Below, piece by piece: positions 54,579 through 59,484 of a stretch of 64,000 bases of DNA. This DNA is from Amaricoccus sp. (lineage in GTDB: Bacteria; Pseudomonadota; Alphaproteobacteria; Rhodobacterales; Rhodobacteraceae). The stretch is from contig NZ_JAGOMQ010000014.1 of the NCBI RefSeq assembly GCF_017993425.1, positions 1 to 64,000 on the forward strand, given 5' to 3'. A program made the translations under genes and the position numbers. The notes under the pieces were generated by a model that saw only the letters and a program-made list of their open reading frames with translations, was not told where the DNA came from and made no database searches. The first letter of the stretch is position 1. The number at the start of each line of letters is the position of its first letter.

Positions 54579-55355
54579 TCAGGCCCCGGACTCGACCGAT
54601 TCCTCGATCAGCGCATCCTCGACCGGGCCTTCCTCCAGCCCGCCGATGTCGACGCCGGCCGCGCCCATCTGGGCGGCCATGCCGTCGAGCGCCGCGCGGG
54701 CGATCAGGTCGCAGTAGAGCGCGATGGCGCGGGCCGCGTCGTCGTTGCCGGGGATCGGGAAGCTGATCCCGTCGGGCGACGAGTTGGTGTCGAGCACCGC
54801 GATCACCGGGATGCCGAGCTTCTTGGCCTCCAGCACCGCCAGATCCTCCTTGTTCGTGTCGATCACGAAGAGGAGGTCCGGCACGCCGCCCATCTCGCGG
54901 ATGCCGCCGAGCGACTGCTGGAGCTTCGACTGCTCGCGCTCGAGCCCGAGCCGCTCCTTCTTGGTCAGGCCCTCGGCGCCGGCGGCGAGCTTCTCGTCGA
55001 TCGACTTCAGCCGGGCGATCGAGTTCGACACCGTCTTCCAGTTGGTCAGCGTGCCGCCGAGCCAGCGGTGGTTCATGTAGTACTGCGCGCTGCGCTCCGC
55101 CGCCTCGGCGACGGCCTTCTGCGCCTGCCGCTTGGTGCCGACGAACAGGATGCGGCCGCCCTTGGCCACGGTGTTGCGCACCGCGAGCAGCGCCTGGTCG
55201 AGCAGCGGCACGGTCTGCGTCAGGTCGATCACGTGGATGCCGTTGCGCGCGCCGTAGATGAACGGCCCCATGCGCGGGTTCCAGCGGTGGGTCTGGTGGC
55301 CGAAGTGGACGCCGGCTTCGAGCAGCTGACGCAGGGTGAACTCGGGAAGAGCCAC
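54579..55355 (-). CDS. rpsB: 30S ribosomal protein S2
   Basis: A 258-aa S2 protein: [30 protein letters not shown], the [13 protein letters not shown] strand and [15 protein letters not shown]. The acidic C-terminal tail ([18 protein letters not shown]) is usual for the lineage. First gene of the translation/envelope cluster; a promoter and a leader hairpin are upstream. Confidence 0.98.
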
Positions 55356-55503: not shown

Positions 55504-55548
55504 GCCGAACCGCCCGCCGCGCGCCGCTTCCGGGGGCCGCGCGCGCCC

Positions 55549-56265
55549 TCAGCCGCCCGCCCCGGCGGCCGCGGGGGCGCGGAAGGCGTGGACCGTCTCG
55601 ACGTAGTCGCGCAGCGGCCCGTGCTTCTCGGGGCCGGCGCCGCTCAAGAGGCCCGCGCCGAAGAACACCCAGTCCGCGCCCTGCTTGCAGGCCCCGATCG
55701 CGTCCGGCAGGAGGTCGGCGGAGCAGCTGACCGGCGTCGCGGGCGCGGCCGCCTTCGCCTCCCGCATCCCGTCGAACTGCCGGCGCGCCCGGTCATAGGC
55801 GGCCTGGTCGTTGCCGAAATGGATGCAGACCCCGTCCACCCCCATGGCGGCGAGCTCGCGGGCGCGCGCCGGGATCTCCGGCAGCTCGAGCCCGCAGATG
55901 TCGGCGAGCACCCCGATCCCGCAGGCGGCGCGGGCCCGCAGCGCCTCGATCACCCCGAAGTCGTTGCCGGCGGCCGACACGGTCGCGTAGTCCGCCCCGT
56001 GCCGCCGCGCCTCGCGAAACAAGAGGCCGCAATTGTCGCGCGCCTTGTAGTCGACCACCAGCGCCCGCGCCCCGGCGATCTCCTTCAGCGCGCCGATCGC
56101 CCGGAAGCCCTCGCCGTAGATCAGCGGCGTGCCGACCTCCAGCCAGTCGACGCCGCAGGCCATCGCCATCCGGGCGATCGGCACGGCGCTCTCCAGGTCG
56201 AACATGTCGATCGCCGCCTGCGCCCAGGGGCGCGGCGGCAGCGGCGGCCTCTCCATCTCCCGCAT
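55549..56265 (-). CDS. HUMPS-family enzyme (hexulose-6-phosphate synthase-like), putatively active
   Basis: A 238-aa OMP-decarboxylase-superfamily barrel. Residues expected for HPS/keto-gulonate-phosphate decarboxylase chemistry are present: Asp20 (AAIDMFD), Glu43 (WLEVGTPLI), Asp72-Lys74-Asp77 (VDYKARD, the DxKxxD motif) and His149 (CIHFGND). ATG 56265 follows the preceding stop by 3 bp; an ATG three codons later is possible. It lies immediately downstream of a paralogue lacking these residues. The substrate could be a pentulose or hexulose 5/6-phosphate; formaldehyde fixation or beta-keto-acid decarboxylation are both possible. Confidence 0.85.
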
Positions 56266-56268
56266 CCC

Positions 56269-56964
56269 TCAATACCCCGCCGCCGGCTGCGGCCGCGGCC
56301 GCGTCGGCCAGGCCCCCGCCCGGATCTCCGCCATCGCCGCCGCGAGCCCGCCCTCCGCCGCCTCGAACGCCGCGCCGTCCAGCACCAGCCAGTCCGCCCC
56401 CTGCCCCGCCGCGGCATGGGCCTCCGCGCGCGTGCTCACGACGCACCCCACCGCGATCCCCACCGCCGCGACCACGGCGGCCACCCCGTCCGACTCGCGC
56501 CGCCCGGGATCGTAGCGCGCCGGATCGTGCCCCAACGCCACGACCACCCCGTCCATCCCGATCGCCTCCAGCTCGCGCGCACGTCCCGGCAGGTCCGCCG
56601 TCGCCATGCAGGTCATGTCCGCCAGCACCCGTATCCCCGTGGCCAGCCGGCAGCGCACCCCCTGCCGGCAGCCGGCCTGGTTGTGGATCGCCGACACCGT
56701 GCCGAACTCGGCCCCGTGGCGGCGCGACTGCGCAAGGAACCGGAAGCACCCGTCATGCACCGTCAGGTTCGCCAGCACCGGCGCGCCCCCCGCCCGCGCG
56801 CAGACCTCCGCGATCACGCCCATTCCCCGGGCATAGATCAGCGGCGTCCCCACGCCGATGCGGTCCGCCCCCAGCCCGGCCGCCCGCTCCGCCAGCCGCA
56901 GCGCCGCGTCGAGCGCCACCCCCCCGATGCGCACCTCGATCGCCGGCCCCGAAGCCTCGCCCAC
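56269..56964 (-). CDS. Degenerate HUMPS-family paralogue, probable pseudoenzyme
   Basis: A 231-aa protein from GTG 56964, which has GGGAGGA five bases upstream. It aligns without large gaps to the next gene's product ([26 protein letters not shown]), but active-site positions differ: Asp20, Glu43, Asp72, Lys74 and His149 of the partner are Gly14, Gly37, Asn66, Thr68 and Ala143; only Asp77 (Asp71) is kept. Intact frame and good ribosome site argue for a working protein rather than a pseudogene. It may form a hetero-oligomer with the active copy or bind a regulatory ligand. Confidence 0.8.
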
Positions 56965-57034
56965 GCCCGTCCTCCCGTCGCTCCACGCACCCCCGATTGA
57001 TGCGCCCGGGCCCGCCCCGGGTCGAGCCCCCCGG

Positions 57035-57079
57035 TGCGGAAATCCGCAGGTCCCCGCCCGCACCGTGCGGATTTCCGCA
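57035..57079. promoter_or_regulatory. Two palindromic operators in the HUMPS/symporter divergent region
   Basis: TGCGGA-AA-TCCGCA (57035-57048) and TGCGGA-TT-TCCGCA (57066-57079) share 6-bp arms and a 2-bp centre. Their centres are 31 bp apart, about three helical turns, so two dimers would bind the same DNA face. The sites lie 71 bp from the HUMPS start and 160 bp from the symporter start. The regulator is not encoded in the window; IclR- or GntR-type proteins use similar short palindromes. Confidence 0.8.
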
Positions 57080-57238
57080 CGCCGCCCGGGTTGCGCCGGG
57101 CGAAAAGCCGCCATGCGTCAGGCTTCCAGCCCGCCGCGAAAGTTGGCGCCGAACTTGCGTAGACCCGGATGCGACCGGAGCGCCGGCGCTAGGGAGAACA
57201 GCGGACCCGGGCGGTCCCGACAGAAGGAGAAAGCATCG

Positions 57239-58564
57239 ATGCATGTCGCGACCACCTCGCACGCGACCCATGGCGGCGGGAAGCCCTGGTATCGCCAGCT
57301 CTATTTCCAGGTGCTGGCCGCCATCGCGCTCGGCATCACCGTCGGCCATTTCTGGCCCGACCTCGGCGCCAGCCTGAAGCCGCTCGGCGACGCCTTCATC
57401 AAGCTCGTCAAGATGATCATCGCGCCGGTGATCTTCCTGACCGTCACCACCGGCATCGCCGGCATGTCCGACCTCAAGAAGGTCGGCCGCGTCGCCGGCA
57501 AGGCCTTCGCCTACTTCATCACCTTCTCGACGCTGGCGCTGATCGTCGGCCTCCTCGTCGGCAACATCGTCCAGCCCGGCGCTGGCCTCAACATCGACCC
57601 CGCGAGCCTCGACGGCGCCGCCGTGGCCGACTACGCCGCCAAGGCCCATGACACCACCATCGTCGGCTTCCTCTCCGGCATCATCCCCTCGACCGTCGTC
57701 GACGCCTTCGCCAAGGGCGACATCCTCCAGGTGCTGTTCTTCTCGGTGCTCTTCGGCATCAGCCTCGCCGCGGTCGGCGAGCGCGGCGCCCCGGTGCTGG
57801 GCTTCCTCCAGGCGCTGACCAGCCCGATGTTCAAGCTGGTCGAGATCCTGATGAAGGCCGCCCCGATCGGCGCCTTCGGCGCGATGGCCTTCACCATCGG
57901 CAAGTACGGCATCGCCTCCGTCATCAACCTCGCGATGCTGGTCGGCACCTTCTACCTGACCGCGCTCATCTTCGTCCTTCTCGTCCTCGGCACGGTCGCG
58001 CGGCTCAACGGCTTCTCGATCCTGAAGCTCATCCGCTACCTCAAGGAGGAGCTCCTCCTCGTCCTCGGCACCTCCTCGTCGGAAGCGGCCCTTCCCTCGC
58101 TGATGGAGAAGATGGAGCGGGCCGGCGCGAAGCGCTCGGTGGTCGGCCTGGTCGTCCCGACCGGCTACAGCTTCAACCTCGACGGCACCAACATCTACAT
58201 GACGCTGGCGGCGCTCTTCATCGCCCAGGCCTGCGGCATCGACCTCTCGATCGGCGAGCAGATCATCCTGCTCCTCGTCGCCATGCTCTCCTCCAAGGGC
58301 GCGGCCGGCATCACCGGCGCGGGCTTCATCACGCTCGCCGCCACCCTCTCGGTGGTGCCCTCGGTCCCGGTCGCCGGCATGGCGCTGATCCTCGGCGTCG
58401 ACCGCTTCATGTCCGAGGTCCGGGCGCTGACCAACTTCGTCGGCAACGCGGTCGCCACGCTGGTGGTGGCGCGCTGGGAGGGCGAGCTCGACCAGGCCCG
58501 GCTCACCGCGGTCCTCGACGGCGAGGTCGAGACCGACGAGGAGGGGATGCCGGTCGCGGCCTGA
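57239..58564 (+). CDS. Dicarboxylate/amino acid:cation symporter (DctA/GltP family)
   Basis: A 441-aa DAACS transporter. [21 protein letters not shown] starts helix 1; the selectivity hairpins and substrate site are in [41 protein letters not shown] and [27 protein letters not shown] precedes the ATG. It probably takes up a C4-dicarboxylate or related acid with protons or sodium. It is divergent from the HUMPS pair and shares their twin operators, so co-regulation is likely. Repeat copy E lies downstream. Confidence 0.93.
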
Positions 58565-58663
58565 CCGACGCCCCCCGCCACGGGACACGCCGCCGGCCCG
58601 AAAGGGCCGGCGGCTCCGCGTTCCGCCCGGGCATGTTTGCTCGCGCGCAAGTATTGCAGCGTC

Positions 58664-59004
58664 GCGCCCCGCCACACTGCACGACAGGAGCCGGTCGCCG
58701 CCCGAGGCCGCGTCGCTCCCCCCGACCGAAGCGGGCTCTGCCCGCGAGGCTGCGGCGCGACAAGCGAAAGCATTGCTTTCGCCGCGCCGACGGCTGGAGC
58801 GCGTTGGCGCGTAAGCCGTAGGGGGTCCAGATTTCCCCGTAGCGCGCAATCCGTCCGTGAGCGCCCCGGCGAGCGCGGAATCGCGCTCGCCCCCCGCGGG
58901 GCGATCGCGGACGGATTTGCCACGGGTCAAATCCGTCTGGCGTCACCGTCCCGCACTCTCCCGACCGGGGTTTCTCTCCACTGTCGTGCAGTCTGGCGCC
59001 CCGC
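58664..59004 (+). mobile_element. MITE-like structured repeat, copy E, with target duplication
   Basis: The element is 58673-58995: left end CACACTGCACGACA, right end TGTCGTGCAGTCTG, one mismatch. The 9-bp sequence GCGCCCCGC flanks it directly on both sides (58664-58672 and 58996-59004). The internal modules are as in copies A-C but more diverged (GCGTTGGCGCGTAAGCCGT, GGGGTCCAGATTTCCCC). The right flank leads into a 42-bp 3'-end motif. Confidence 0.85.
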
Positions 59005-59022
59005 CAACACTTCATTGGCGCT

Positions 59023-59064
59023 CACGTGAAATCAAGCACTTAGGGAATTTTCACGCGTGAACAC
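59023..59064 (-). promoter_or_regulatory. 42-bp 3'-end motif, copy 4 (18 nt after the zincin gene)
   Basis: CACGTGAAATCAA, CTTAGGGAATT and TTCACGCGTGAA-CAC (palindrome 59050-59061). Read along the zincin gene it begins 18 nt after the stop as GTGTTCACGCGTGAAAATT, the same geometry as after metA and uvrD. Confidence 0.75.
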
Positions 59065-59082
59065 CTGGGCCGATTCCGCCGC

Positions 59083-59484
59083 TCAGGCGGTCCAGTCGTC
59101 GACATGGCGGATGTCGTCGTCGGACCAGCCGAGGTGGTGGGCGATCTCGTGGACGAGCACATGCGCGACCAGCCGGTCGAGCGCGACGTCCCCCCGCTCG
59201 ATCCATTCGTCGAGGATCGGCCGGCGGAACAGCCAGACCGCGTCGGGCCGCGTCGGCTGCCCCATCACCGAGCGCTGCGGCAGCGCCACCCCGTCGTAGA
59301 GCCCGGTCAGCTCGAACGGATCCTCCACCCCGAGATCGGCCAGCATCTCCGCGTCGGCGAAGTCCTCGACCCGGATGGCCAGCCCCGCGCAGGCGGCGCG
59401 GACCTCCGCCGGCAGCCGCGCGAAGGCGGCGTCGGCGAGGCGCTCGATCTCGGCGAGCGACGGGGCGCGGCGATGGTCCGGCAT
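59083..59484 (-). CDS. Minimal zincin metallopeptidase
   Basis: A 133-aa metallopeptidase-family protein (PF06262-like, MMP-like zincin fold). The zinc site is HEIAHHLGWSDDD with His112, Glu113 and His116; the third ligand is downstream in the DDDIRHVDD segment. No signal peptide, so cytoplasmic. The family is common in Alphaproteobacteria and Actinobacteria, with unknown substrates. Confidence 0.9.
   Translation of the reverse strand: MPDHRRAPSLAEIERLADAAFARLPAEVRAACAGLAIRVEDFADAEMLADLGVEDPFELTGLYDGVALPQRSVMGQPTRPDAVWLFRRPILDEWIERGDVALDRLVAHVLVHEIAHHLGWSDDDIRHVDDWTA

Follow-up and report, generated by a model that had tools for sequence, protein, structure and literature searches.

Two genes of the HUMPS family lie side by side in a genome of Amaricoccus sp., one with a complete set of catalytic residues and one stripped of most of that set, and the locus raises the question of whether their products work together as one enzyme. 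A sequence-only reading of the locus had proposed an obligate heterodimer or an allosteric partner, and possibly an undescribed two-subunit enzyme. The stretch of DNA analyzed here, called the window, is 64,000 nucleotides long and opens contig NZ_JAGOMQ010000014.1 of RefSeq assembly GCF_017993425.1. The stripped paralogue is called A and the catalytically complete protein B.

Layout and coding character of the two genes

A is transcribed first and B second, head to tail, and the pair is flanked by rpsB and a divergent dctA (Table 1). Both frames are open, and the earlier claim that A has an intact frame and a strong ribosome site was confirmed. The two genes are separated by 3 nt, a single GGG codon, and from the sequence we infer that they may be translationally coupled. 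B has a second in-frame ATG three codons downstream of the first, which may be the real start. A third gene of the pair's kind was not found between the pair and rpsB. A and B are the only clear family members in the 4.24 Mb host assembly: B as query matched twice, and querying with the alignment of A and B brought up one further, weak match (E 5e-4), which lies on a different contig.

Table 1. Features around the A-B pair, in window positions.
Feature	Positions	Strand	Remarks
rpsB	54579-55355		flanks the pair
Segment with A, B and dctA	55519..59089		counterpart not found on the rpsB contig of G003, by comparison with G003
B, HUMPS protein with all six catalytic residues	55549..56265	-	238 aa
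A stop TGA and GGG, then B ATG	56266..56271	-	A and B in one frame
A, catalytically stripped HUMPS paralogue	56269..56964	-	231 aa; GTG start; SD GGGAGG 6 nt upstream
Two perfect palindromes TGCGGAWWTCCGCA	57035..57079		31 bp from start to start; only exact copies in the genome
dctA, C4-dicarboxylate transporter	57239..58564	+	divergent from A-B; 85-90% match in 2 other genomes of the genus

Profile searches place B in the family and leave A below threshold. Against Pfam OMPdecase/HUMPS (PF00215, cut-off 27 bits) B scores 39.5 and A 15, and against the HPS profile TIGR03128, whose curated cut-off is 200 bits, B scores 90.4 and A 47.4, both below. With the OMPDC equivalog profile B reaches 23 bits against a cut-off of 208, which is far below. 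AlphaFold2 predicts a (beta-alpha)8 HUMPS barrel for both proteins, with best PDB matches among HPS and KGPDC. The model of A (pLDDT 92.2, pTM 0.90) is an HPS-type barrel whose best two matches are HPS 3f4w and 3ajx; that of B (pLDDT 89.4, pTM 0.88) best matches HPS 3f4w and the HPS-containing 9lj9. The alignment input to each model included the other protein and 21 homologues, so part of the model confidence derives from relatives.

The reading frame of A also looks like that of a host gene. Its GC content by codon position is 0.80/0.59/0.95 and its fourfold GC is 0.97, near the values of neighboring genes, and a codon score derived from six genes of the host prefers A's frame over the five others. 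On this host-like codon composition and the confident barrel model, A is no ordinary pseudogene.

Residues lost and residues kept

A and B are 38% identical across 190 aligned amino acids. The residue comparison used an alignment that also contained 66 references, of which 13 belong to the subgroup described in the next section and 53 do not. B's D20, E43, D72, K74, D77 and H149 correspond to UlaD D11, E33, D62, K64, D67 and H136, and all six are present in B and in 66/66 references. At the same positions A has G14, G37, N66, T68, D71 and A143. Five of the six are therefore gone, and Asp71, which corresponds to B's D77 and aligns with the final Asp of the DxKxxD motif, is the only one retained. 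The sequence-only reading had the residues of both proteins right; its description of A as stripped of catalytic residues holds for five of the six and fails for the D77 equivalent. Its label of active enzyme for B is better read as putative, since B falls short of the HPS cut-off and lacks the GG phosphate motif. The seven-residue HPS set (D8, E30, D59, K61, D64, D109 and H134 in 3ajx numbering) gives the same picture: B is complete, with D122 added to the six residues above, and A matches only at D71 and at D116, which lies at the position of UlaD E112. HPS/KGPDC active-site residues are tabulated in PMC5980557.

The losses in A are concentrated in the catalytic site. The cis catalytic set was taken to be the six residues without the Asp that is attributed to the partner subunit. 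Twelve columns are invariant in all 66 references, and A has lost six of them, namely the five presumed cis catalytic residues and Q16, which is 5/5 cis catalytic columns vs 1/7 of the others (Fisher one-sided p=0.0076). Relaxing conservation to the 95% level gives 5/5 vs 2/15 (p=0.0014), and to the 90% level 5/5 vs 5/22 (p=0.003). If D116 is counted as catalytic, the loss in A becomes 5/6. What is found is thus the pattern of an enzyme/pseudoenzyme pair, with catalytic residues lost in one paralogue and the fold, by prediction, kept.

Two distant rows of the tree, L163 and L164, were left out of these counts. L164 carries the full catalytic set of six. In L163 the equivalents of D72, K74 and H149 are gone and those of D20, E43 and D77 remain, and the statement that all references carry the six residues fails if L163 is included, because it is itself degenerate. 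All 50 usable rows outside the tree contain D.K..D.

The degenerate protein of L163 deserves its own description. It was also seen in a genome of the host's family (G132, locus L176, 5700-6761), and in its HUMPS domain EFASSD replaces DxKxxD, with the last Asp and the GG motif retained. At L176 the domain is preceded by an HTH-like stretch that matches Pfam HTH_31 at 24.4 bits (E 3.7e-5), slightly under the cut-off of 27. The protein is likely a HUMPS-derived sensor regulator.

The one residue of the six that A retains is the one that works across subunits in related dimers. In human OMPDC, Asp317' is contributed by the second monomer (PMC12631982), as is D75' in the OMPDC of M. thermautotrophicus (PMC12395307). 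OMPDC belongs to the same superfamily as A and B, and these residues are the last Asp of its DxKxxD motif.

A dead subunit that completes its partner's site would keep this last Asp, and HPS and KGPDC would share the trans arrangement by transfer from OMPDC. The retained Asp is modest evidence, because L163, which has no known partner, lost its catalytic Lys and His yet also kept the final Asp; it is weak evidence also because 38% of the aligned A and B positions match anyway.

Ancestry, distribution and surroundings of the pair

A tree was built from 70 of 120 usable rows, comprising the subgroup, the named rows and every second other row. In this tree A and B are sisters (100/96) inside a subgroup of 15 proteins (100/99), whose other members are one Diplocloster protein (Lachnospiraceae, Lachnospirales) and 12 proteins from Armatimonadota, the phylum containing Chthonomonadaceae. 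A sits on a longer branch than B (2.83 vs 1.57) and has an odd composition. The best match of A is B, at 119 bits, and the 80 loci examined in genome_contigs give at most 83 bits. With B as the phmmer query, the Diplocloster protein (127 bits) scores above A (114.5).

Subgroup members were found in 12/251 Armatimonadota genomes searched (272-343 bits, with the next match at 193), three of these 12 being already in the query alignment, and in 1/295 genomes of the order of Diplocloster, namely the query's own; in both searches the first-look candidates were scored in part. Each of the 13/13 subgroup loci holds a single catalytically complete HUMPS copy. A second match occurs on a separate contig in 9/12 of the Armatimonadota genomes, and the one that was read (L158) has an ordinary GG motif, as does the second copy in Diplocloster (L122). 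One subgroup copy per genome seems to be the rule in the genomes seen, and the pair would be either a local innovation or an arrival from an unsampled donor.

The subgroup keeps the six HPS catalytic residues in 13/13 members and differs at its phosphate end. Of the GG motif in beta-7, the second Gly is present in 0/13 subgroup members vs 53/53 other references. B has S182-A183-D184 there, a form of the loss that is its own within the subgroup, and A has V-V-S. The GG of the beta-7 loop binds phosphate, so that B may plausibly act on something other than a hexulose or pentulose phosphate. On TIGR03128, three subgroup members (L011, L012 and L046) score 87-138 bits, below the cut-off of 200. 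In Diplocloster modestus the subgroup gene lies between two ABC permease genes (L011, 7081-13563), followed by genes for a solute-binding protein, a Zn-alcohol dehydrogenase and an aldehyde dehydrogenase; together with the loss of GG, this context weakly suggests a substrate other than the classical hexulose phosphate. At three Armatimonadota loci (L149, L150 and L151) a small gene adjoins the subgroup gene. It is the only recurring neighbor noticed there, and the L149 copy is DUF1854 by Pfam.

The pair itself was seen once. It is present in 1/11 genomes of the genus and absent from the 10/10 others. With B as query and E of at most 1e-5, a search of the window genome and 60 relatives, 61 genomes in all, matched the window genome alone, as did a search at 1e-8 in a sample of 390 genomes of the order with first-look candidates scored in part. 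Similar samples, with candidates again partly scored, gave no second pair in 394 genomes of the family, two others of which have distant HUMPS proteins, or in 398 genomes of the phylum, seven others of which have distant matches at 25-38% identity. In genome_contigs, scanned with two peptide patterns, an adjacent second copy was found at 0/80 loci, these being 80 of the 329 confirmed relatives, with several loci stopping at contig ends; three loci have a weak match of 20-28 bits kilobases away. A search of viral contigs turned up no relative. Among plasmids, 109 records matched, all below 60% identity, and the matches listed, 20 in number, are all staphylococcal hxlA at 28%.

These searches bear on two expectations of the sequence-only reading. 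Conserved co-occurrence of the two paralogues was not borne out by the genus genomes, the samples of order, family and phylum, or the 80 loci. Its proposal of an obligate heterodimer likewise fails as a property of the subgroup: the 13 relatives, 12 from Armatimonadota and one from Diplocloster, each show a single copy at the locus, which means that no obligate pair is conserved among them. That reading had named relatives with only a fully functional active copy as evidence against itself; the subgroup loci, with only a catalytically complete copy, answer to the first half of that condition and not to the second, full function.

Comparison with close relatives shows where the pair sits. Neither A nor B occurs in the rpsB regions of nine relatives, one of these regions reaching no further than about 1 kb upstream. 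In G003, the closest relative by rpsB (99%), homology to the window breaks off at 55518 and, in inverted order, picks up again at 59090. The block from 59090, which runs to 64000 and on to contig position 64800, is inverted beside rpsB relative to G003.

Two palindromes lie upstream of dctA (Table 1), and they were considered as operators shared by A-B and dctA. This was ruled out, since the motif also precedes dctA in two relatives that lack A-B: G006 has one exact copy, and G010 has one exact copy and another with two mismatches 32 bp on. The palindromes are probably dctA control sites, judging from where the motif recurs. Near dctA these relatives have either a sigma-54 response regulator, some 1.8 kb away (L174), or an adjoining divergent sensor kinase (L175). 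The regulator near dctA is presumably DctD, and positions 57143-57160 contain a putative sigma-54-type promoter-like sequence. A-B occupies the place where G010 has its sensor kinase gene, beside the dctA control region.

Two other sets of neighboring genes were noticed. At 12-1816 of the window there is an AAA ATPase gene (Pfam AAA, AAA_lid_6), presumably CbbX-like, followed by a frame that resembles ribulose-phosphate 3-epimerase and which we take to be that enzyme; this suggests a Calvin-cycle cluster running into the window. In another genome of the host's family (G1428; L177, 7526-8697) an HPS-like gene has ABC transporter-like frames nearby and is followed by a frame assumed to be 6-phospho-3-hexuloisomerase, by appearance an ordinary HPS-PHI pair.

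What the pair may be

The best single explanation is that A and B are the two subunits of one enzyme. A tandem duplication of one gene of the HUMPS subgroup would have given rise to both; B would have kept the enzyme, and A would have become a pseudoenzyme subunit that pairs with B through the interface that is usual for HUMPS dimers. In such dimers the active sites are shared between the subunits, and in the heterodimer B's pocket alone would be catalytic, made of B's D20, E43, D72, K74 and H149 together with Asp71 from A. The role of A would be to stabilize or tune that pocket. The HPS and KGPDC families carry out Mg-enediolate chemistry, either aldol reactions or beta-keto-acid decarboxylation, and B's chemistry would probably be of this type. 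We infer the complex, the trans role of Asp71 and the activity of B, and hold the heterodimer from tandem duplication, with A supplying Asp71 to B's sole site, as a tentative reading with a little less than an even chance. More doubtful is a heterodimer with one working site in which A was kept for its trans-acting Asp71 and the subgroup does not anchor its substrate through the GG loop. A's long branch and odd composition, and B's higher score with the Diplocloster protein than with A, weigh against the heterodimer reading. Part of what the sequence-only reading proposed survives, in that A is an intact, coding-like, predicted-foldable tandem paralogue with losses focused on catalysis and a trans-type Asp kept; conserved co-occurrence does not. 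The focused loss raises the two-subunit reading and the Asp does so modestly, and the reading is less likely to be general because the searches found no other pair.

A may instead be a repurposed HUMPS barrel that does not pair obligately with B and has a role of its own, for example in sensing a ligand or as an enzyme whose pocket is new (N66, T68, H70 and D71). We consider this unlikely. The kept (predicted) fold and the losses focused on the old active site would suit it, and degenerate HUMPS domains do seem to serve elsewhere, as behind the HTH-like stretch of L176, but A has no added domain, is directly adjacent to B and near-equal to it in size, and has no third gene of the pair's kind before rpsB. 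It is decidedly improbable that A is a functionless duplicate drifting to loss and open by chance in GC-rich DNA. Such drift would fit an orphan pair and A's longer branch, and by our reckoning random frames have few stops at this GC content; decay would erase the codon pattern, however, and A's codon-position and fourfold GC are still host-like. A also keeps 6/7 of the non-catalytic invariant positions, a good ribosome site and a confident predicted fold, modeled with relatives in the alignment.

The changed phosphate end invites another reading, in which neither protein is a usual HUMPS enzyme and the compound that B acts on is unphosphorylated or held differently, with A as B's partner or as a second enzyme. 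The absence of the second Gly throughout the subgroup, with S-A-D in B and V-V-S in A, points this way, as do the transport and dehydrogenase genes around the Diplocloster copy. This reading is nevertheless improbable: the HPS catalytic residues persist in all 13 subgroup members, phosphate may be held by other groups, and the only recurring neighbor noticed in Armatimonadota is the small gene at three loci, DUF1854 in the one tested.

Known systems offer partial likenesses to the two-subunit reading. HPS (HxlA; TIGR03128; PDB 3ajx, 3f4w) has the same barrel, and both models have 3f4w as their best PDB match; HPS differs in that B and A score far below its profile cut-off, B and its subgroup lack the GG motif, and A is stripped. 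UlaD (PDB 1kv8, 3ieb) resembles B in catalytic residues and fold, and has E112, R139 and T169-G-G where B has D122, N152 and S182-A-D. By the residue table of PMC5980557, B also carries the HPS-type Asp where HPS and KGPDC differ, and OMPDC has Lys where B has Glu43. An enzyme with a dead paralogue as partner subunit occurs in the trypanosomatid AdoMetDC prozyme, deoxyhypusine synthase and plant PDX1.2, where PDX1.2 is reported to act as a regulator. Those systems are eukaryotic and belong to other enzyme families, and the A-B complex is only a proposed one. Among the results listed in a literature search that covered few subscription papers, none deals with a degenerate partner subunit of HPS or KGPDC.

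If the two-subunit reading is true, the pair would be a natural half-site test, in which a bacterial homodimer became an enzyme/pseudoenzyme heterodimer. In OMPDC dimers the two subunits share their active sites, and the contribution of each half-site could therefore be tested on a pair in which one subunit is stripped. The GG-less subgroup, with an HPS-like catalytic site, an altered phosphate end and, in one relative, a place in a transporter operon, points to a reaction that has yet to be assigned.
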